From positions 186,001-250,000 of the forward strand of contig JASEIU010000003.1 in the NCBI GenBank assembly GCA_030017715.1: 64,000 nt of DNA. Reading direction: 5' to 3'. Origin of the DNA: Candidatus Saccharicenans sp. Its GTDB lineage: Bacteria; Acidobacteriota; Aminicenantia; Aminicenantales; Saccharicenantaceae. The position numbers and the translations under genes were made by a program. This document shows positions 10,200 to 19,827 of this stretch, in pieces. Positions within the stretch are counted from its first letter, which is position 1, and the number at the start of each line of letters is the position of its first letter. The notes under the pieces were generated by a model. It ran no database searches. It saw only the letters and a program-made list of their open reading frames with translations, and had not been told where the DNA came from.

Positions 10200-12158
10200 T
10201 CATTCCAGGCCGTATTCTTCAAGGAGTTTGGCCGGCACCAGGCCCTCGGCCGACCACTTCCACTGCCGGTAATAGGCATCCAGGATGGCATTGTAATAAA
10301 CAGGGTCTAGGCGCTTTCCGGCCTGGGGGCCGGCGGTCAGCGGCTCGGCAAACTTCGGGGGAATGAAGGCATCATACTCCCGCCTTCTCCCCTGCTGATT
10401 ATTGACGAAGCGCTCGAGAATATAGATCCGCCTTCCACATTCCTTAAGGCTCTCGGCCGTGTATTCAATCCCGGTCAGCGCCCGGTACATCTCGAGAAAA
10501 TCGGGGGAGGCAAAGTCTTCCGTGAAGAAGTCGCACAGCCCGAGTGAGTCAGTCAGAGCCTTGCCGGTCTGGCTTCCGGCCACATAGGAAGCTAAGTTTT
10601 CCGCCCCGCTTAGCCCGCCCTCCTCGGCCTGAATGGTCCAGGCGTAGGTATGGTCTCCCCGGCCGCGGTTTGAGGTCCCGTAAGCCGTAAACATGCCCGG
10701 GAAGACTTTGGGCTCAATGCCGGCATAGCCCAGCCCGGCATAGGCGGTCGTCAGACAGCGGACAATCTCTTCCGGGCTGGCCCCGGCAGTTGATTTAATC
10801 AGCTCGTCGACGACCAGGTCGGTCGGCCTGGCTAACAGCCGCCCGCAGTCGCTTCGGCCGTAAGCGATATCCTCCAGCGCCTTAATCATGCTCGCGGTAT
10901 GGCCAAACTCCGGAGCTCCGGGCAGCGGCCACCAGCCCTTCTCCCTGAGCTCCATGGCTCCGGCCATAACGCTGCCGAAGGTCATGGTATCGACCCCGAG
11001 TTCATTGCAGAGGTGGTTTAAGTAGAAAATTCCGTCGCGGTCGGTAAGACAGCAGTTTATCCACAGGGCAATGGTTTCAAATTCGGGTCGCACTCCCTCG
11101 TGAGCGTACGGCCCGCTGTTTACGGCCGCGCTCCTGGTGCACATGATGTGTCGGCAGCGGTTGCAGACTTTATGCTTCCCGGCAATCTCCAGAAAAGCGG
11201 CCGTTGATACTCTCTTATAAAGCTCCGGGTCAAAATAGCCTTCATCAAAATTATGCCAGGGGAGATATCCGCCCTTCTGGCCCAGATATCCACCGTTAAA
11301 AGCCCGGTCGAGCCACCAGGTGGTCCCGGTTTCCGGACGGAAGGAAGCCGTCCAGTTGGGGTCATGGACGTGGCTGTTGACGGATTCATCTATGGCCCTG
11401 GACTTTTCCAGAAATTTCTCCCGGTCATAGAACTCCGGTAATTGTCGACCGTAAGCGGTAATGGCCACCAGATTCTTTGAGCCGAAGACCGCTCCGGCTC
11501 CGCCCCGACCAAAATTGCGGTGGTAATCGTTGGTCAAACAGGCCAAGGCCACTTGATTCCAGCCAGCCGGCCCGGCACAGACAGTGGAAGAACCGGGATG
11601 CTTCTGGCTCAGGAAATCGGTGGTCTCGGAGGCCCTCCGCAGCACCTTCCGGCCGTTAATTTCTTCAAAGAGTTCCGGTTCCGCTTCAATTATCTGGACC
11701 TTCCCTTCAACCACCAGAAGGCGAACCGGTTTTTCAGCCCGACCGTCTATGATGATCTGGTCAAAACCCGCCCTTTTAAGCATGTTGGGGAAAAGTCCGC
11801 CGCAGCTGGAATGGGTCAGGAGGCCGAAAACCGGAGGCCTGTGCCCCAGCCACTCTTTTTGCGCCGGAGAATAGGTAAAAGGACTGATAAAAGAGCAGGA
11901 GCCGCGCCCGGCTGTCGGCACGGCCGTATCGTTAAGCGAGGAATTCCCGATTACGATCCGGTTGGCCGGAGACAGCGGGTCCTTAAGCCAGCCTCTTTCT
12001 TTAAGATGCTGATAGATGAGATAGGCCTGAACACCACGTCCGCCAAGATACAGGCGGTAAATATGGGGTGGCGCTTCTCTGATTTCGACCCGGCCGCAGC
12101 TCAGGTCGACCAAAGCCCATTTCCCGGTATAGCCGTAGATTTTTTTCTGGTCAGCCAT
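10200..12158 (-). CDS. aldehyde:ferredoxin oxidoreductase (tungsten/molybdopterin family)
   Basis: This 652-residue cytoplasmic enzyme of the AOR family oxidises aldehydes to acids with ferredoxin. The N-terminal AFOR domain begins GYTGKWALVDLSCGRVE (about residue 8) and carries LGGRGVQAYLIY; RGGAGAVFGSKNLVAI lies near 218-233; AYGTSNRGRGDHTYAW (492-507) is the pterin-side motif; LGLCDFF holds C542. Iron-sulfur ligands are C332, C335, C340 and C542. The first three are spaced CX2CX4C (CNRCRHIMC), one residue longer than the CX2CX3C of the characterised archaeal enzyme. The start ATG 12158 follows CAGGAG. The gene is alone, with no MoaD-like or ferredoxin partner beside it. The family is certain; the aldehyde substrate is unknown. 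Confidence 0.9.
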   Translation of the reverse strand: MADQKKIYGYTGKWALVDLSCGRVEIREAPPHIYRLYLGGRGVQAYLIYQHLKERGWLKDPLSPANRIVIGNSSLNDTAVPTAGRGSCSFISPFTYSPAQKEWLGHRPPVFGLLTHSSCGGLFPNMLKRAGFDQIIIDGRAEKPVRLLVVEGKVQIIEAEPELFEEINGRKVLRRASETTDFLSQKHPGSSTVCAGPAGWNQVALACLTNDYHRNFGRGGAGAVFGSKNLVAITAYGRQLPEFYDREKFLEKSRAIDESVNSHVHDPNWTASFRPETGTTWWLDRAFNGGYLGQKGGYLPWHNFDEGYFDPELYKRVSTAAFLEIAGKHKVCNRCRHIMCTRSAAVNSGPYAHEGVRPEFETIALWINCCLTDRDGIFYLNHLCNELGVDTMTFGSVMAGAMELREKGWWPLPGAPEFGHTASMIKALEDIAYGRSDCGRLLARPTDLVVDELIKSTAGASPEEIVRCLTTAYAGLGYAGIEPKVFPGMFTAYGTSNRGRGDHTYAWTIQAEEGGLSGAENLASYVAGSQTGKALTDSLGLCDFFTEDFASPDFLEMYRALTGIEYTAESLKECGRRIYILERFVNNQQGRRREYDAFIPPKFAEPLTAGPQAGKRLDPVYYNAILDAYYRQWKWSAEGLVPAKLLEEYGLE

Positions 12159-12340: not shown

Positions 12341-14674
12341 TCAGTTCAGACCGTCCCGGGATCGCCCGGTATAGATGACCGGCCTCGGCAGAAAGATTAT
12401 ATTCAGGCTCTTAATCGTTTCTCCCGGCTTTGTTTCGATCGACATCGGCAGCTCAGTCTGAAGTTTAACCCCTCTCGGGACAGTCTCTTCGTCAACCAAA
12501 AGCTGATAGGCGCCGGGCAGGATGTTCTCAAACACAAAGCGGCCCTGTGGGTCGCTGTAGCAGGTCAATTCTTCAATTCGCCATTGCCTCAGCCCCTCGG
12601 GCAACTTCCCATCCTCGACCGCTTTCAGGATGACCAGAACATCCTTGAGCGGCAGGTCTTCCTCATCAAGCAACCTGTTCTTGTTGACGTCCTGAAAAAC
12701 CGTTCCTCCGATTGTGGCCCCTTCTACCAGCACATATTCCAGCCTGGAAGTCTTCCTCTTTTCCACCACCAGCGCCCGGCGTTCCTGGCCCGACAGGTAG
12801 TACTCGGCCGGAATCCGGCTGATTTCCAGGTTGACCGAATGCAACCCCTCGGACACCCGGCCGAAAACAAACCGGCCCTGGGGGTCGGAACTGACGCTGC
12901 TTCCGTCTTCAAGATAAAAGGGGACGCCGGGGAAAGCCCTGTCCTCCGGGTCAAAAATTCCGTTCAGATTCCGGTCGGAAAAAATCAGACCCTCAACCCG
13001 ACCGAGACCGGTCAGCACCGGTCCGGTAGTCCTTCCCTGATAGGCTGCCGGCTCCCCCCAGTTAAAGCGCCGGTCGATCTTTAAGGTCAGCCAGTAATTG
13101 GCCGGCAGGGCAGATTGAAGCGGCCAGCTGGCCCGAAAATCCAGCCTTAGCTTTAACCCCAGCGGCAGCCACCGGCCCAGGCCCAGGTAGAGCTCGGTTC
13201 TTTGGGAAGACTGACTGGTAAAATACCAGGACCTGAGGTCAAGGTAAGACAGCTCGCCGTAAAAATCGGTGCCGAATAAAAAAGGAGAATAGGTGGCCAG
13301 CCGGAGCCGGGTCAGGTTGGAGAGTTTGTTTTCCAGGTAATCATAATAGCGGCTGTCCTCGGCCTCCAGCAGCAGGTAGGCGCTCTTCAGGTAGCTGTAT
13401 CTGAGCCCCAGATAAAACGAAGGGTAGTTGAAATCGCGCTGGTCGTCGACCCGGTCGTCGTAGTGCTGGAACCTGGCCCGGAGATAGGGGTAAAAACGCC
13501 CCAGATTTTTGGAAAGCTGAAGATAAAAACCAGGGCTTATAAAGCTACGGTAATTTTCCCCCGGGTGACGGGATTCGGCCGCGCTGAGGTCCAGCCTCAG
13601 GGTCAGGTCCGGCCAGGGCGGGGTGACCAGAGAAAATCCGGAATTCATCCGCCAGAAGTCAGTGGTGTTAAGTCCGGAACGCCGGTCGACGTTATCGTGG
13701 TAATAATCCACAGAACCAAAAAGAAAAACCCGTCGCCGGGTCTGATAGCGCCAGGAAGCGAAAAAGCCTTCCTGGTCCCGGTCGTATGCGAACTCGCTGC
13801 TGAGGTTTCGGAAGTCGGCATCCACCCGGCGGTAATTGACCTCAAGCCACCAGCGCTGGCCCTGGAGCAGCGGGCCGAAGCGAATCGAAGTTCCCGGGAC
13901 CCTGGCCTGATCGCTCTCCCCGGTCGACAGGCTGGCCCTGGTATCCATGACAAACCTGGCCCGGTCGTTGAAACGCAGCTCGGATTCCACCAGCAGAATA
14001 TCATTGCTCCTGGTCAGCAACTCGCCGCTCCAGCTTCTTTCATTTTCGCTGTGGAGGAAACCGAAGCCGAGAAAATACTTCTTATCGGGTTCAAAACGGC
14101 CCATAAAACCGGCAGCCGTCTGTTCAGTCAGCGAATAGAAATTGCCCAGCAGGCCGGTCAGCCTGGCCACTTTTCCGCTAAAAACTTGCAGTCCGTACTT
14201 CCTGTGCTCGAAGCCGGCGCTCACTCCCCGCAGATAATTGAAAGCCGGGTAATAATTGGTGAAGCGGTAACCCAGGTTGGTCAACTGCAGGCTGTGGTCG
14301 CCCAGCCTTAAGTTCCAGGATAGACGGCCGACCTGTAAACCCTGCCAGCTCAGGTACCAGTGAGCCGCTTCCAGGCCGGAAGAAGACAGGCGACCGTCAA
14401 ACCAACCGCTCAAAACCCCATAATTGATGAATTTCTGCCGGAGCTCGAGGTGCATAATGTTTTCATATTCATTGGCGTAGAAGGGGCCGACCTGAGAATA
14501 AATGCGGCTTCGGTTCCAGTAAGATAAATTCAGGTACCCTTGCTGGGCGGAAAGTTCAGCGACCGCCGACAGCCCGGAAAGGAATAAGAAAACAAGAAGC
14601 CCGCCGGCAAGATTATCCGGGCGTAAAAAGCCTGGCTTCCGTCCAGCCGTCCGCAATGTCCGCCAGAAGCTCAT
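12341..14674 (-). CDS. outer-membrane usher-like beta-barrel with two C-terminal SdrD_B/carboxypeptidase-regulatory-like domains
   Basis: This encodes 777 residues. A signal peptide (hydrophobic LAGGLLVFLFLSGLSAVAEL, cleaved near residue 43) leads into about 510 residues of alternating, aromatic-rich strands, a typical outer-membrane barrel. LRLGD (122-126) and YLRGV (147-151) are in the order seen near the start of chaperone-usher barrels. From about residue 560 come two related beta-sandwich units, each with a DxNxNxxxDxxD calcium-type motif and an SDPQGRFVF turn, like the plug and C-terminal domains of ushers or SdrD_B repeats. The gene closes a tight minus-strand operon (14 bases after the previous gene) with a PapD-like chaperone and subunit-like genes. 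Function as a pilus or surface-fibre assembly platform is inferred from this context; no canonical usher plug inside the barrel is obvious to me. Confidence 0.6.
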   Translation of the reverse strand: MSFWRTLRTAGRKPGFLRPDNLAGGLLVFLFLSGLSAVAELSAQQGYLNLSYWNRSRIYSQVGPFYANEYENIMHLELRQKFINYGVLSGWFDGRLSSSGLEAAHWYLSWQGLQVGRLSWNLRLGDHSLQLTNLGYRFTNYYPAFNYLRGVSAGFEHRKYGLQVFSGKVARLTGLLGNFYSLTEQTAAGFMGRFEPDKKYFLGFGFLHSENERSWSGELLTRSNDILLVESELRFNDRARFVMDTRASLSTGESDQARVPGTSIRFGPLLQGQRWWLEVNYRRVDADFRNLSSEFAYDRDQEGFFASWRYQTRRRVFLFGSVDYYHDNVDRRSGLNTTDFWRMNSGFSLVTPPWPDLTLRLDLSAAESRHPGENYRSFISPGFYLQLSKNLGRFYPYLRARFQHYDDRVDDQRDFNYPSFYLGLRYSYLKSAYLLLEAEDSRYYDYLENKLSNLTRLRLATYSPFLFGTDFYGELSYLDLRSWYFTSQSSQRTELYLGLGRWLPLGLKLRLDFRASWPLQSALPANYWLTLKIDRRFNWGEPAAYQGRTTGPVLTGLGRVEGLIFSDRNLNGIFDPEDRAFPGVPFYLEDGSSVSSDPQGRFVFGRVSEGLHSVNLEISRIPAEYYLSGQERRALVVEKRKTSRLEYVLVEGATIGGTVFQDVNKNRLLDEEDLPLKDVLVILKAVEDGKLPEGLRQWRIEELTCYSDPQGRFVFENILPGAYQLLVDEETVPRGVKLQTELPMSIETKPGETIKSLNIIFLPRPVIYTGRSRDGLN

Positions 14675-14688
14675 TTGCCTTCCGCCAC

Positions 14689-15195
14689 CTAAATCATAGA
14701 AGCGGTAAAAGTAATGATCTGGGTGTATTCACCGGCAACGTAGTTCCAGGAATTCTGAAAATAAAAAGTGAGTTCGGCCTCCTGAGACCCCCTGTTCCGG
14801 GCCAGCACCAGGCTCTGACCGGCTGCCAGAACCCCATCGCTAAAGGGAGGGTTAGGAGTGGCCCGCCAGGAAATAGCGCTGACGGAAATCACCTGCCCCC
14901 CGGCGCTGACCAGATTGCCCTCAGCTCTGATGGTCAGTTCCCACCTGCGGTTGGGGGGCCAGGTTGCGACCTGAATTCTAACCGGTGTGTCGGCCGCAAC
15001 CGACGGCTCCAGGTCGGGGTCAGCCGGCGGAAAAGTGATGGCCGCGGGATAAATGTTGATGGATACCTCCCAGGATTGCGGATCGCCCCGGGAAGGCAGG
15101 CTGAGGCCGGAAAGAATCAGGAAAAATAAACCCGCGGCGCCGACGGCCAGGATTCTGGCCGGCCAGCCTGATTTGACATAAGTCCCGGATTTCAT
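14689..15195 (-). CDS. exported beta-rich subunit-like protein D
   Basis: This encodes 168 residues with an N-terminal signal sequence (AVGAAGLFFLILSGLSL, cleavage near residue 38). The mature part is a string of beta strands: WEVSINIYPAAITF, VRIQVATWPPN, WELTIRAEG, ISWRATP, ELTFYFQNS and the terminal strand AGEYTQIITFTASM. The closing GEY/GTY...T strand is the same style as in subunits at 15202 and 16707 and recalls pilin subunits of archaic (Csu-type) chaperone-usher systems, which end in a GTYxDTVTVT strand. It lies 6 bases after the previous gene and 14 before the barrel gene. It could be an adhesin-type or minor subunit. I do not recognise a named family with certainty. Confidence 0.6.
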   Translation of the reverse strand: MKSGTYVKSGWPARILAVGAAGLFFLILSGLSLPSRGDPQSWEVSINIYPAAITFPPADPDLEPSVAADTPVRIQVATWPPNRRWELTIRAEGNLVSAGGQVISVSAISWRATPNPPFSDGVLAAGQSLVLARNRGSQEAELTFYFQNSWNYVAGEYTQIITFTASMI

Positions 15196-15201
15196 CTTGG
15201 T

Positions 15202-15747
15202 CTACACACCTTCTACCAAAACGGTGACTGTCGTCCGGTAGGAACCCGGAGCCATACTCGGGTCCTCGGCAAAAAAGAAGTAAAGATAACCGGTAAAACT
15301 CCCCGGACCGGCAAACCGGGCTACCAGAACCGGGGAAGCCTTGCTCAGTTGACCTCCATAAAAGTTGCTGCCTTCCGCCTGCCAGCTTATTCTTTCTGCC
15401 GGTATGGTATACCCGGTCGAGCTATCCAGCAGGTCGGAAGAAACCAGGAACCAGACGTTGGTGCTGGAATTATAATCGTTGTTGGTCTTGACCGTCACTT
15501 CAAACCGGCCTTCGTTGGCCGGAATAGTCTGGGGCACTCCGGTTGAGGAACTCCGGGTAAAAGAGACCTGGCTGGTGTTGAGTTCGAGCCGGAAGCGCCT
15601 GGCCACCAGGACCGTCACTCCCAGGTTAGCCGCGCTCTGGGCCAGCAACTGTCCCAGAGTCAAACCGGCCCAGGCCAGCAGGACGGCCAGGGCCAGCCTC
15701 CGTCCTTGATTTCTTTTATTCCGGATTGCCTGCCCGGTTCTTTCCAT
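15202..15747 (-). CDS. exported beta-rich subunit-like protein C
   Basis: This encodes 181 residues, starting at ATG 15747. A basic N-terminus is followed by a hydrophobic segment ALAVLLAWAGLTLGQLLA, with a likely cleavage site near residue 37. The mature protein has VTVLVARRFRLELNTSQVSF, GRFEVTVKTNND, an ISWQAEG strand, LVARFAGPGSFTGYLYFFF and the closing PGSYRTTVTVLVEGV strand. That last strand is again pilin-like and could be the segment that donates or docks in a neighbour. It sits 16 bases after the chaperone gene and 6 before subunit D in one operon. Assignment as a surface-fibre subunit rests on the operon and on shared architecture with 14689-15195 and 16707-17228, not on a recognised family. 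Confidence 0.6.
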   Translation of the reverse strand: MERTGQAIRNKRNQGRRLALAVLLAWAGLTLGQLLAQSAANLGVTVLVARRFRLELNTSQVSFTRSSSTGVPQTIPANEGRFEVTVKTNNDYNSSTNVWFLVSSDLLDSSTGYTIPAERISWQAEGSNFYGGQLSKASPVLVARFAGPGSFTGYLYFFFAEDPSMAPGSYRTTVTVLVEGV

Positions 15748-15763
15748 TTTCCTGCCTTGGCGA

Positions 15764-16567
15764 CTATTTAAGCGTAATATCTTTTTCCAGGGCCAGCAAC
15801 TCTTCCCGACCGATGTCCAGCTTGACTTCGGCCTTATAGTTCCCGGGCCCCAGCTTTTCTTTGAACGGAATTATTACCCAGCGCTCACTTCCAGGAAGCA
15901 CCGGCTCGTCCGGAACCTCCAGGCTGAGCGCCTTTCGGCCCTCGGCCGCGGTCAATCTGATTTCGCCCTTCAGCCTAAAATGTGTTCGGCCCGGGTTGCT
16001 CAGCTTGAGCCTGATGGCCTGGAAATCGCCGGCGCTGTCGACCACCAGGTCGGTCAGCGAACCCTGTATCTCCACTTTACCCACCAGCACATAGACGGCA
16101 GCCACAATCTTTCCGGTGAAAGCTACCTGCCCCAGCCTTCCGCCGGGCGGAGCCTCTGGCACCTGTTCAAAAGATATTCCGGCGTGGTAGCCTCCCGGTT
16201 GGGTATCGCCGGGCACGGAAACCGTGAACCGGACCGATTTCATCTCCCCCGGCTGCAATCTGAAATCAAACGGATTTACCCTGATCCAATCCCGGCAGGC
16301 AAAAGCCGTTGGCTGATTACCCAGGAAATTCCTGCTGCCGTCCTCCTTGAGCGTCCAGTTCTCGGTATAGACTTTGAGCCTGACCGGTCTGGGGGAATTA
16401 TTCCTGACGTAAATTACTTCCGTCTTCTGACTGCCAGGCCCGACTTTCAGCTCCAGCCTGATGGGCGTGATGCCGAAATAAATCTGGGCCCGAAGCGGCG
16501 GGCACAGCCAGACCGCAAGCACGACAGCCAGCAAAAACCGCGACCAGCCTGTGAACCGGCCTCTCAT
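15764..16567 (-). CDS. PapD-like periplasmic chaperone for fibre subunits
   Basis: This encodes 267 residues from ATG 16567-16565, which has AGGAGG seven bases upstream; an earlier in-frame ATG at 16618 lacks one. The signal peptide (FLLAVVLAVWLCPPLRAQ) is followed by two immunoglobulin-like domains. IYFGITPIRLELKVGPGSQKTEVIYVRNNS is the G/A-strand start of PapD-type domain 1 with its basic cleft residues (R, K); VRLKVYTENW, LQPGEMKSVRFTVSVP and GGYHAGISFEQVP complete domain 1; domain 2 (about 170-267) ends VLPGSERWVIIPFKEKLGPGNYKAEVKL. Such chaperones hold unfolded subunits in the periplasm by strand complementation. It lies between a terminator hairpin and subunit C. Non-pilus DUF916-like Ig proteins are the alternative, but the neighbours favour a chaperone. 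Confidence 0.65.
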   Translation of the reverse strand: MRGRFTGWSRFLLAVVLAVWLCPPLRAQIYFGITPIRLELKVGPGSQKTEVIYVRNNSPRPVRLKVYTENWTLKEDGSRNFLGNQPTAFACRDWIRVNPFDFRLQPGEMKSVRFTVSVPGDTQPGGYHAGISFEQVPEAPPGGRLGQVAFTGKIVAAVYVLVGKVEIQGSLTDLVVDSAGDFQAIRLKLSNPGRTHFRLKGEIRLTAAEGRKALSLEVPDEPVLPGSERWVIIPFKEKLGPGNYKAEVKLDIGREELLALEKDITLK

Positions 16568-16653
16568 CTTCCGGCCTCCTGTTACCAATTTTCCGGTTCT
16601 CCCATTAACCTGAATCAATTCTATGAAAAGCTAAATTTCCGGTCAAATAAGAC

Positions 16654-16685
16654 AAAAGGGAGAGGGGAAAACTCCTCTCCCTTTT
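16654..16685 (-). terminator. strong hairpin between the main subunit gene and the chaperone gene
   Basis: A perfect 12-bp stem (AAAAGGGAGAGG at 16654-16665 with CCTCTCCCTTTT at 16674-16685) with an 8-base loop is followed, on the minus strand, by TTTTGTCTTATTT. It begins about 21 bases after the stop of the subunit gene at 16707. Partial read-through here would give high subunit and low chaperone/barrel expression, as in classical pilus operons. Confidence 0.75.
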
Positions 16686-16706
16686 CAGGCTGCCAGAAAA
16701 CTGAAC

Positions 16707-17228
16707 TCAAATCTTGGAAAGCGTGTAGGTGGCCGTTATGGAATAAGTTCCAGGCTCCTGATTGACATAATCCCTCAGGAAGCTGAAATTGAGCTGCCCT
16801 TCATGCCAGTGGAAAATGCTTCCCGTCCACTGCCCCACCGGGACCGCGTTTCCAGCCAGCAGTGAACCGGCCTGGTAGCCAGAGCCGCTGACCGTCCAGC
16901 TAACCGTGCTGGCGGGAACGGTCGAGTGAAAATCTCCCGCGGCCGTAACGGTCAGGTTCAGAGACGAAGCCGGAACCATGATGGCAAACACTCTGACCGC
17001 CACCGGATTCTCATTGGCCGCAATCTGCACCGTGCCCGGGGTAGCCCCCACGGAGGGAGCTATATCGGTAAAGGTAACAGTATTGGTGCCGATATAAAGG
17101 TCGTACCACTCAGCCAGGGTAACCTGGAAGGTGACCTCCTGCGACTGCTGGGCCGATAAGGGATTGATGGCAACGACCAGCAAGAACACTAACCAGAAAC
17201 CTGACACCCAAAAAGATTTTGCCTTCAC
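16707..17228 (-). CDS. exported beta-rich subunit-like protein B (likely major subunit)
   Basis: This encodes 173 residues from GTG 17228-17226, nine bases after AGGAGG. The signal peptide FWLVFLLVVAINPLSAQQ is cleaved near residue 27. The mature part begins QEVTFQVTLAEWYDLYIG and is made of strands rich in T, V and S (NTVTFTDI, VQIAANENPVAVRVFA, LNLTVTAAGD, STVSWTVSGSGY) with the closing strand EPGTYSITATYTLSKI. This resembles Csu/spore-coat-U-type pilins, which end in a GTYTxT strand. It has its own promoter region (17264-17292) and is followed by a strong terminator, which suggests the most highly expressed member of the cluster. I do not see the conserved cysteine pair of many pilins. The role as structural subunit is inferred. 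Confidence 0.6.
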   Translation of the reverse strand: MKAKSFWVSGFWLVFLLVVAINPLSAQQSQEVTFQVTLAEWYDLYIGTNTVTFTDIAPSVGATPGTVQIAANENPVAVRVFAIMVPASSLNLTVTAAGDFHSTVPASTVSWTVSGSGYQAGSLLAGNAVPVGQWTGSIFHWHEGQLNFSFLRDYVNQEPGTYSITATYTLSKI

Positions 17229-17263
17229 TTCTGATTCCTCCTACATTTATAAAAATTTTAGAT

Positions 17264-17292
17264 TTTATAATACAAGAGTTATGCCAGGTCAA
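17264..17292 (-). promoter_or_regulatory. promoter of the main subunit gene, sigma-70 and sigma-54 readings overlap
   Basis: On the minus strand TTGACC (17292-17287), a 17-base spacer and TATAAA (17269-17264) form a good sigma-70 promoter. Overlapping it, TGGCATAACTCTTGTA (17286-17271) has the exact spacing of a -24/-12 sigma-54 promoter but GT in place of GC at -12. A 20-bp activator-type repeat lies 73 bases upstream of the -24 GG, as at the promoter at 17995-18011, which supports the sigma-54 reading. Confidence 0.5.
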
Positions 17293-17347
17293 GATGGAAA
17301 TGAAAAAAAGTTGTAAGTTATTTATAAGAAAAGATTTATATGACTAA

Positions 17348-17367
17348 GTGTTCGCTTTCATAACACC
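17348..17367. promoter_or_regulatory. activator-site repeat, copy 1
   Basis: GTGTTCGCTTTCATAACACC contains the inverted repeat GTGTT-N9-AACAC. It matches copies at 18071-18090 and 18153-18172 and is centred 73 bases upstream of the -24 GG of the promoter before the subunit B gene. Confidence 0.55.
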
Positions 17368-17443
17368 CCGTGTCCGGGTTTTCGCGCCAAATAATGTCAC
17401 CGGCCTGCGTATTCTGTTCCGAAACTTCTTTTTTTATAAAATT

Positions 17444-17950
17444 TTAAATTGCACTCAGAGTAAATACCGCTTTATAGCGCTGGTTTTGATTATTTTCAGG
17501 ATCCAGGAAAACCAGGCTGCCGGTTTTAAGGCCGCTCCCCTGCCAGACTGCAAAGACGCTTTCCTGTCCGGTCAGAACCAGCCCCTCTCCCTGGAGGTCA
17601 CCCTGGCCCCGCCAGACCAAGGCAGACCGGTCAAAGCGGCCTTCGCCTTCCTTATAAATTATTCCCTTGAGAGCCACCGTCTTTCCCTCGCTCATGGACA
17701 GGAGAACCCGGACCTGAAGCGGCTGGCCGCAAAGGATTTCCGTTTGACCCAGCGCCTGTTCGTTCCCGGTATCTGAAAAACCATCGCTCCCTGATTTTAT
17801 TTCCAGGACCAACCATTCCTTAAGCTCTATGGAAAACGAAGCTCTGGCTGAAGTGTCGGCTCGCAGGAAGGCAATAAGCCCGATCGATAAACAATAAATT
17901 ATGAATAGGAAGAATTTCCACCCTTTGCTATTTTCATTTATTCTCTTCAT
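17444..17950 (-). CDS. exported beta-rich subunit-like protein A
   Basis: This encodes 168 residues from ATG 17950-17948 (AAGGTG about eleven bases upstream), preferred over an earlier in-frame ATG (18040) because the signal peptide WKFFLFIIYCLSIGLIAFL begins near residue 11. The mature part is beta-rich: ASFSIELKEWLVLEI, a GQPLQVRVLLSMSEG strand, ALKGIIYKEGEG, LVWRGQGDL, LVLTGQESVFAVW, SLVFLDPENN and the closing QRYKAVFTLSAI strand, which is like the ends of subunits B to D. It is the first gene of the minus-strand cluster, directly downstream of a sigma-54-type promoter and two activator-type repeats, and 215 bases before subunit B. A minor or tip subunit is possible; I recognise no named family. 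Confidence 0.55.
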   Translation of the reverse strand: MKRINENSKGWKFFLFIIYCLSIGLIAFLRADTSARASFSIELKEWLVLEIKSGSDGFSDTGNEQALGQTEILCGQPLQVRVLLSMSEGKTVALKGIIYKEGEGRFDRSALVWRGQGDLQGEGLVLTGQESVFAVWQGSGLKTGSLVFLDPENNQNQRYKAVFTLSAI

Positions 17951-17994
17951 GTTTATCTTACACCTTGTCATCTCCCATCCGTTGCCTTTAATAA

Positions 17995-18011
17995 AGCAAT
18001 ATTCATACCAG
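17995..18011 (-). promoter_or_regulatory. sigma-54 (-24/-12) promoter of the fibre cluster
   Basis: On the minus strand CTGGTATGAATATTGCT matches the sigma-54 consensus CTGGYAYG-N4-TTGCW at almost every position, with GG (18009-18008) and GC (17997-17996) ten bases apart. Transcription would start near 17984, giving a leader of about 35 bases before ATG 17950. The sigma-54 activator gene lies directly upstream on the same strand. Confidence 0.75.
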
Positions 18012-18331: not shown

Positions 18332-19690
18332 TCAGACGTCGAGCTTGTACTTCTTCAGCTTCCGGTACAGAGCCGGCCTGGTTATGCCAAGTGCCCTGGC
18401 CGCTTTCTGCTTATTAAATCCGTTGGCCCGCAGGACCTCCAGCAAATGTTTCTTCTCGATTTCAGAAAGGGTAAGATTGACATAAGGGTAGGTTTTATCC
18501 CCCACCAGCTCAGTCTCCACCAGGCTGATCATCCCTTCCGGCAGATGCTGAATATCAATAAAATTGTCGGCGGTCAGCATCACTCCCCGCTCAATTACCT
18601 TTTCCAGCTCCCGGATATTTCCGGGCCAATCATATTCGAACAGTATCTTCTTTACCCGGTTGGATAGGCCACGGACCGCTTTCCCGAACCGCTGGTTATA
18701 GCGGTCAATGAAGTGCAGGCAGAGAAGCGGGATATCTTCCTTTCTCTTTCTCAGGGGAGGCAGGTTGACCTCGGCCACGTTAATCCGATGAAACAGGTCT
18801 TCCCGGAAGGTTCCCTTTTTTATCTCTTCTCTCAGGTTCCGGTTGGTGGCGCAGATGACCCTGACATCAACCTTCACCAGCCGGTTGGCTCCCAGCGGCT
18901 TGAAGGTCCTTTCCGACAGAAACCTCAGCAATTTAGCCTGACTGCTCAGAGGAATTTCGCTGATTTCATCAAAAAAAATGGTCCCGCCGTCTGCTTCCTT
19001 CAATAAGCCATTCTTAGCCCGGTCGGCGCCAGTAAAAGCGCCGCGCTCGTAGCCGAAGACTTCGGATTCGAACAGCGATTCGGGCAGGGTGGTGCAGTCA
19101 ACCACCACCAGGGGCCTGTCCTTCCGCGGGCTGAGGCGGTGAAGAGCCCGGGCCGCCAGCTCTTTTCCGGTTCCGGTTTCGCCTGTTACCAGGACTGTGA
19201 TCTGGTGCCTGGCCAGCCTTTCCACCAGAGTGAACAGCTCCAGCATAATCGGGTTGCGGCTGACCATCCCTTCAAAAATATATTTGCTGGCCAGCTCTCT
19301 CTCTAACTGGTAAGTTTCCCGCCGGACGGATATCTTTTCTTCCAGTTTCTTCAGGCTTTCAGCCAGAGCTTCGGGCCTCACCGGCAGACTGAGATAATCG
19401 AGAGCTCCGGCCTTGATCACCTCCGCCACCCTGGCTTCGCTCTCCGGTTGCCCCAGGACAATGACTTCCAGCAGGGGGTCGTAGCTTTTTATCTTCTGAA
19501 GCTGTGAAACGGCTTCAGACAGCCGGCCTTCCCTGACCAGAAGAATTATCCGGGGTTTTTGCCGGTTGATCAGCGAGATAAGGTCTTCTTCAGCCCCGGC
19601 CAGGGTTAGCTGGCAGGCTCCGGGAGGCATGGCCTGAGCTATCTTTCCGGCCACCCCCTCATCGGCAGAAATGATTAATATCTTTAACAT
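18332..19690 (-). CDS. sigma-54-dependent transcriptional activator with pseudo-receiver domain
   Basis: This encodes 452 residues from ATG 19690-19688; an upstream in-frame start (19756) would add an unlikely tail. Domains: receiver-like fold (1-118), AAA+ sigma-54 interaction domain (about 140-370) with Walker A GETGTGKE (170-177), GAFTGA (217-222) and Walker B IFFDE, then a Fis-type helix-turn-helix at the C-terminus (QKAARALGITRPALYRKLKKY). In the receiver domain the acidic pair D10/E11 remains, but the phospho-acceptor position reads IILLVREG (V52 in place of Asp) and the usual KP is LP (L102). So it is unlikely to be controlled by phosphorylation. GAFTGA shows it can contact sigma-54. 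Its position directly upstream of the fibre cluster makes it the likely regulator of that cluster. Confidence 0.9.
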   Translation of the reverse strand: MLKILIISADEGVAGKIAQAMPPGACQLTLAGAEEDLISLINRQKPRIILLVREGRLSEAVSQLQKIKSYDPLLEVIVLGQPESEARVAEVIKAGALDYLSLPVRPEALAESLKKLEEKISVRRETYQLERELASKYIFEGMVSRNPIMLELFTLVERLARHQITVLVTGETGTGKELAARALHRLSPRKDRPLVVVDCTTLPESLFESEVFGYERGAFTGADRAKNGLLKEADGGTIFFDEISEIPLSSQAKLLRFLSERTFKPLGANRLVKVDVRVICATNRNLREEIKKGTFREDLFHRINVAEVNLPPLRKRKEDIPLLCLHFIDRYNQRFGKAVRGLSNRVKKILFEYDWPGNIRELEKVIERGVMLTADNFIDIQHLPEGMISLVETELVGDKTYPYVNLTLSEIEKKHLLEVLRANGFNKQKAARALGITRPALYRKLKKYKLDV

Positions 19691-19827
19691 AACACATCCA
19701 AGGCTAACCGGATATTTGATAATATTATAAGCCCTGCCGTTTCCGGAATAAAGCATCTTTTCTTTAATTCCGGCTTGGGCTATACTTTGCTATCAACTCC
19801 AATTCTGAAAAATCATCGGAGGACAAC

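Follow-up and report, generated by a model that had tools for sequence, protein, structure and literature searches.

Archaic (sigma) chaperone-usher pili, such as Csu of Acinetobacter, are made from operons that each combine several small subunits with one two-domain chaperone and one outer-membrane protein, and their SCPU pilins carry a free N-terminal strand. Usher-free donor-strand fibres, the archaeal threads and Pyrodictium cannulae, form a second group of comparable systems, and we know of no chaperone or barrel gene for either. In the WxL/WxLIP clusters of Gram-positive bacteria, WxLIP (DUF916-DUF3324) is predicted to place a hairpin strand inside the WxL domain (PMC10599100), an event similar in kind to donor-strand complementation. 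Here we describe a minus-strand gene cluster in a 64,000-nucleotide stretch of DNA (the window; contig JASEIU010000003.1, positions 186,001 to 250,000) from a 2.9-Mb, 93% complete genome of Candidatus Saccharicenans (class Aminicenantia, Acidobacteriota). With a probability of about 0.72, we read it as encoding a chaperone-assisted donor-strand surface fibre that is exported via a non-canonical outer-membrane platform.

In the direction of transcription the genes encode an NtrC-type activator, subunits A and B, a chaperone, subunits C and D, and a 777-residue barrel protein, and a signal-peptide-like segment opens each of the six proteins from A to the barrel. A first-pass annotation of the window had delimited these six open reading frames (ORFs), and their order and sizes were all borne out; it had omitted the upstream activator gene, which belongs to the cluster as well. 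The gene set and its conservation, the homology of the chaperone, the predicted pilin-like fold of B, the promoters and a hairpin are what our computations show.

Subunits A-D would reach the periplasm by Sec signals, each as an incomplete Ig-like fold with its N-terminal strand, which has alternating hydrophobic residues, left free. The two-domain chaperone would complete a subunit and hold it until the barrel takes over; there, the N-terminal strand of the next subunit would displace the chaperone strand, and the polymerising chain would be exported through the barrel. The adjacent activator and sigma-54 would turn the operon on. A defined subunit order and an adhesive role may also be supposed.

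Chaperone and subunits

The description of the third product as PapD-like proved correct. It is a two-domain homologue of the archaic chaperone-usher chaperones of Acidobacteriota, which it matched in hhalign at 99.0-99.3% over 229-235 columns spanning both domains. The match to WxLIP, again over both Ig domains, stood at 98.9-99.0%, and archaic chaperones compared with WxLIP directly gave 92%; reversed decoys reached 0.5% in the phylum-level test and all stayed below 4%. A family profile containing no archaic rows also picked out the archaic chaperone encoded in an SCPU cluster of genome G168, with an E-value of 1.5e-18 (G168:C75:110104, flanked by the SCPU genes of that genome).

WxLIP_PGBD was the commonest Pfam match among 23 chaperone relatives (20/23, best 7.9e-8), and the window chaperone itself scored 19.5 bits, under the Pfam cut-off of 27.3. 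PapD_N (PF00345) matched four of the 23 and not the window chaperone. Searched against the PDB, the 23-relative profile found EfmWxLIP1 (9i1y, 9i25) over both domains with an E-value of 1e-5, and no other solid match. In a maximum-likelihood tree the chaperone family and WxLIP lay on one side and the archaic and classical chaperones on the other (87/94), the joining branch having moderate support only and the long rows being unsure. The invariant Pro59 of CsuC corresponds to Pro116 of the chaperone, which is invariant in the genus alignment. Arg89 of CsuC, a super-conserved mark of non-classical chaperones, anchors the subunit carboxylate (PMC4654587); unlike the archaic proteins, the window chaperone and its close relatives lack this hallmark and have histidine there (His145 in the window), whereas the relatives at loci L110 and L113 have arginine.

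Subunits A-D are paralogues, as one iterated profile collected 60 subunits as a single family. They had no match in Pfam, NCBIfam or the PDB, and the SCPU domain PF05229 matched nothing anywhere in the genome. When proteins of the cluster were searched singly by sequence in these three databases, SdrD_B-type C-domains and Ig hits below threshold were all that appeared. We compared subunits A-D with SCPU pilins whose genes lie in genuine archaic chaperone-usher clusters elsewhere in the Acidobacteriota, and obtained 86.6-88% with a class-level profile and 95-96% with a phylum-level profile (154-155 columns in global mode), the latter in both local and global mode. The match came mainly from the N-terminal strand region. 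Reversed profiles gave 0.3%, and WxL domains, at 0.3-0.4% against 95-96% for SCPU pilins, were rejected as the closest relatives of A-D. The similar C-terminal GTY/GEY strands ascribed to all four subunits were present in B (GTY), C (GSY) and D (GEY); A is degenerate at this place (QRY).

AlphaFold2, given an alignment of mature B and 23 paralogous and orthologous proteins, likewise in mature form, returned a pilin-like fold of nine strands (pLDDT 84.9, pTM 0.77). Residues 1-14 of the mature protein lay in no strand and outside the fold, and hold most of an alternating V-F-V-L pattern, a predicted free N-terminal segment as in donor-strand pilins. The best structural match in VIA-align was the CfaE pilin domain (Z 7.2), and chaperone-usher pilins made up 22 of the best 50 matches listed, including FimG, FimF, FimA, PapK, PapG, CsuA/B, CsuE, CS17 and CS20. 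Other listed matches included clathrin-adaptor mu domains and the CanA cannula subunits (Z 6.8), a likeness to usher-free fibres; no sequence relation was seen between the window set and archaeal threads or Pyrodictium cannulae. WxL chains were not among the matches listed, which excludes nothing.

The WxLIP matches raise a different explanation, in which the chaperone-like protein is a permanent stabilising partner of surface-located A-D, the barrel is only an anchor, and no polymer forms, making the system a diderm relative of WxL/WxLIP. The one solid PDB profile match, the commonest Pfam match and the side of the tree on which WxLIP falls all speak for it. We nevertheless consider it unlikely: the subunits match SCPU pilins (95%) and not WxL domains (0.3%), the AlphaFold2 model leaves B with a free N-terminal extension, and the chaperone ends in REELLALEKDITLK, without the C-terminal transmembrane helix of WxLIP. 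Unlike WxL/WxLIP clusters, the window set has no WxL domain and includes an outer-membrane barrel. During these searches we also noted a plasmid record labelled Klebsiella pneumoniae (H1, CP069367.1, 101758-102471) whose product shares 74.5% identity with the WxLIP query from Enterococcus faecium; this is possibly a mixed or mislabelled assembly.

The outer-membrane barrel

Residues ~45-545 of the 777-residue protein look like a beta-barrel from their sequence pattern, and residues 546-770 form two transthyretin-like domains (SdrD_B 5.7e-10). Ushers consist of a 24-strand barrel with a plug, a periplasmic domain at the N-terminus and two at the C-terminus; two C-terminal beta-sandwich domains are present here. 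The motifs earlier called usher-like are present, LRLGD at residues 122-126 and RGV at 149-151, and their glycines G125 and G150 hardly vary among 18 relatives; these motifs are no evidence of an usher. An AlphaFold2 model built with five close relatives was unusable (pLDDT 30), and a crude strand count did not distinguish ushers from the barrel. The C-terminal domains matched usher C-domains at 58-91%, and at up to 95% when a phylum-wide profile was compared with an archaic usher. We did not accept the hhalign values of 77-95% as proof of homology between barrel and usher, because unrelated SdrD_B domains match nearly as well.

Several results count against the proposed fibre, or against likening it to known pili. 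Usher (PF00577) was unmatched in the barrel, in its 18 relatives and in the whole genome, in a test in which archaic ushers of Acidobacteriota score 1e-26 to 1e-34. A profile of the barrel region gave only 0.2-6% against an archaic usher, and SdrD_B domains of unrelated giant proteins matched usher C-domains at 34%, with a score nearly that of the class-level profile. For the subunits, signal-peptide columns contribute to the SCPU match, Foldseek found no match to B with an E-value below 0.001, and a Z-score near 7 is in the range where a mere shared general arrangement is possible; the pilin-like fold of B is therefore probable and short of proven. Finally, the cluster contains no evident two-domain tip adhesin, and mature B, C and D contain no cysteine, two further differences from archaic pili.

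Could the barrel still be a true usher, so highly diverged that the system is a remote clade of the chaperone-usher superfamily? We place this variant of the donor-strand reading somewhat short of an even chance. The partners are the same as in archaic systems, two periplasmic beta-sandwich domains follow the barrel, the C-domains match an archaic usher at up to 95%, and the profile test is weak both ways, too weak to exclude an usher, as the archaic usher profile also missed the real usher EcpC (12.9%). Set against this, the barrel part is unmatched, the C-domain match is unspecific, and no plug or usher N-terminal domain is recognisable in the Aminicenantia barrel proteins. Elsewhere in the Acidobacteriota, the N-terminal domains of the relatives vary (Cu_amine_oxidN1, T2SS-T3SS_pil_N, NEW3-like), and the Cu_amine_oxidN1-like domain of two relatives gave nothing against the archaic usher N-terminal domain (1.9%).

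In two barrel relatives (L113 5255-8413 and L115 5872-8778), a SPOR domain at the C-terminus is paired with a domain of Cu_amine_oxidN1-like or T2SS-T3SS_pil_N type at the N-terminus, which is unusual for an outer-membrane barrel. SPOR binds peptidoglycan, so the C-terminus of the barrel would be periplasmic, as in ushers. The barrel's C-terminal domains probably serve for docking in the periplasm, in the role that the C-terminal domains have in ushers.

The first-pass annotation had suggested either a diverged branch of archaic chaperone-usher pili or another strand-complementation fibre system. The first suggestion failed on the usher, since the barrel has no Usher match and the chaperone groups with WxLIP in the tree, and the search for an usher, the component that defines the chaperone-usher pathway, came back negative, so that we do not claim membership of that pathway. 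Chaperone and subunits would nonetheless act as their counterparts in archaic pili do. A strand-complementation fibre is the best reading, because the chaperone is homologous to PapD-type chaperones and the subunits are pilin-like, with a predicted free N-terminus in B.

Promoters, gene order and spread

A perfect sigma-54 element (12/12 to the consensus in Table 1) precedes A at a similar position in 14 of 16 loci, against a background of 1.5% of random stretches. Ahead of B, an element scoring 11-12/12 was present in 9 of 14 loci. RpoN is encoded in the genome, and the activator, which adjoins the cluster in most Aminicenantia loci, matched Sigma54_activat (2e-65), HTH_8 (2e-15) and, below the cut-off, Response_reg (4e-4). 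Because its receiver looks degenerate, the activator may be switched on otherwise than by phosphorylation. Structures on the cell exterior are often under sigma-54 control (PMC3162934). In 12 of 14 loci, B is followed, ahead of the chaperone gene, by a strong hairpin with a T-run, although the sequences differ. In classical pilin operons, such hairpins yield more major pilin than chaperone. Together, the promoters before A and B and the conserved hairpin after B suggest a regulated fibre of which B is probably the major subunit.

The same gene order was found by tblastn in five independent relatives at 53-88% identity (one contig stops within D), with B the most conserved subunit (81-88%). The order is kept across the class, and other families of Aminicenantia also have the complete set headed by the activator. 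As the genes and their order are maintained in independent genomes and A-D are one family, the cluster is not a chance arrangement. The chaperone gene was present in 13 of 19 genomes of the genus and in 24 of 142 genomes of the class. In two other Aminicenantia genera the barrel gene is separated from D by an additional chaperone gene, which has diverged (L051 10472-11248, L052 2077-2868 and L054 8186-8803), and in one genus member an IS110-type transposase and a TonB-like gene are inserted between the activator and A (L016 7914-9819).

Subunit-chaperone-barrel sets were found in many Acidobacteriota families among the loci fetched. Comparing the two hit tables of the phylum searches identified 21 genomes with both chaperone and barrel, and in all 21 the two lay on the same contig within ~3 kb; outside Aminicenantia the majority of these barrel matches depend on the C-terminal domains, homology of the barrel region being confirmed for the relatives at L109 and L110. 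In G168 a new-type cluster lies ~10 kb from a canonical archaic SCPU chaperone-usher cluster on the same contig (L078, L118). Three Deinococcus plasmids also carry a set, its genes nearly all annotated as hypothetical: a chaperone that matches the family at 100% in hhalign, two small exported proteins, the second matching the subunits weakly (67%), and a 1,013-1,090-residue protein bearing the same C-terminal domains as the barrel.

This distribution bears on two further explanations. In one, the barrel is a porin or transporter that only happens to neighbour a fibre operon without being related to it, and assembly is usher-free, as proposed for archaeal threads. The barrel shows no usher homology, and usher-free donor-strand fibres do exist (PMC9715654); the pairing of barrel and chaperone is, however, constant over two phyla, which makes this explanation improbable. 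The other, a form of the donor-strand reading that we offer tentatively, is that Acidobacteriota and Deinococcota have a separate fibre-assembly pathway, as yet unnamed, whose chaperone is intermediate between PapD-type and WxLIP proteins and whose platform evolved independently of ushers. We found no description of the system in the open-access literature searched, whose coverage leaves out most subscription journals.

Features of the locus and implications

Table 1. Positions of the cluster's genes and control elements in the window
Feature	Position	Strand	Remarks
Sigma-54 activator	18332..19756	-	NtrC family: degenerate receiver, AAA+, Fis-type HTH; probable local regulator
Sigma-54 promoter TGGTATGAATATTGCT ahead of gene A	17995..18010	-	12/12 to TGGYAYRNNNNTTGCW
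Subunit A, exported, pilin-like	17444..17950	-	Longest ORF from 18040; ATG 17950 likelier start
Second sigma-54-like promoter TGGCATAACTCTTGTA ahead of gene B	17271..17286	-	11/12 match
Subunit B, probable major pilin-like subunit	16707..17228	-	AlphaFold2 model, structural matches, conservation, own promoter, hairpin behind
Stem-loop (12 pairs) and T-run after B, probable attenuator	16654..16685	-	
Periplasmic chaperone, two Ig-like domains	15764..16567	-	ORF reaches up to TTG 16618
Subunit C, exported, pilin-like	15202..15747	-	
Subunit D, exported, pilin-like	14689..15195	-	
Outer-membrane barrel (~500 residues) and two transthyretin/SdrD_B-like C-terminal domains	12341..14674	-	Proposed assembly/secretion platform

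Because the conserved sigma-54 promoter occupies the DNA just downstream of TTG 18040, gene A probably starts at ATG 17950 or 17971; its homologues at Aminicenantia loci begin near the ATG equivalent to 17950. The chaperone probably starts at ATG 16567. Directly downstream of the operon, as in nearly all Saccharicenans loci, lies a gene for an aldehyde:ferredoxin oxidoreductase (10200-12158, minus strand), which has no known functional link to the operon.

If our reading is right, chaperone-assisted donor-strand fibres extend to operons of two phyla that present family models overlook, and a platform built unlike an usher would offer a natural comparison to learn which features an usher requires. 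The kinship of the chaperone with WxLIP would make a shared ancestry of the Gram-positive WxL system and chaperone-usher pili testable; should the pathway be a separate one, the two systems would be linked as descendants of one chaperone-subunit pair. We found no description of fimbriae from Aminicenantia in the open-access literature searched, and the cluster would provide this class with a surface appendage and a sigma-54 switch to control it.

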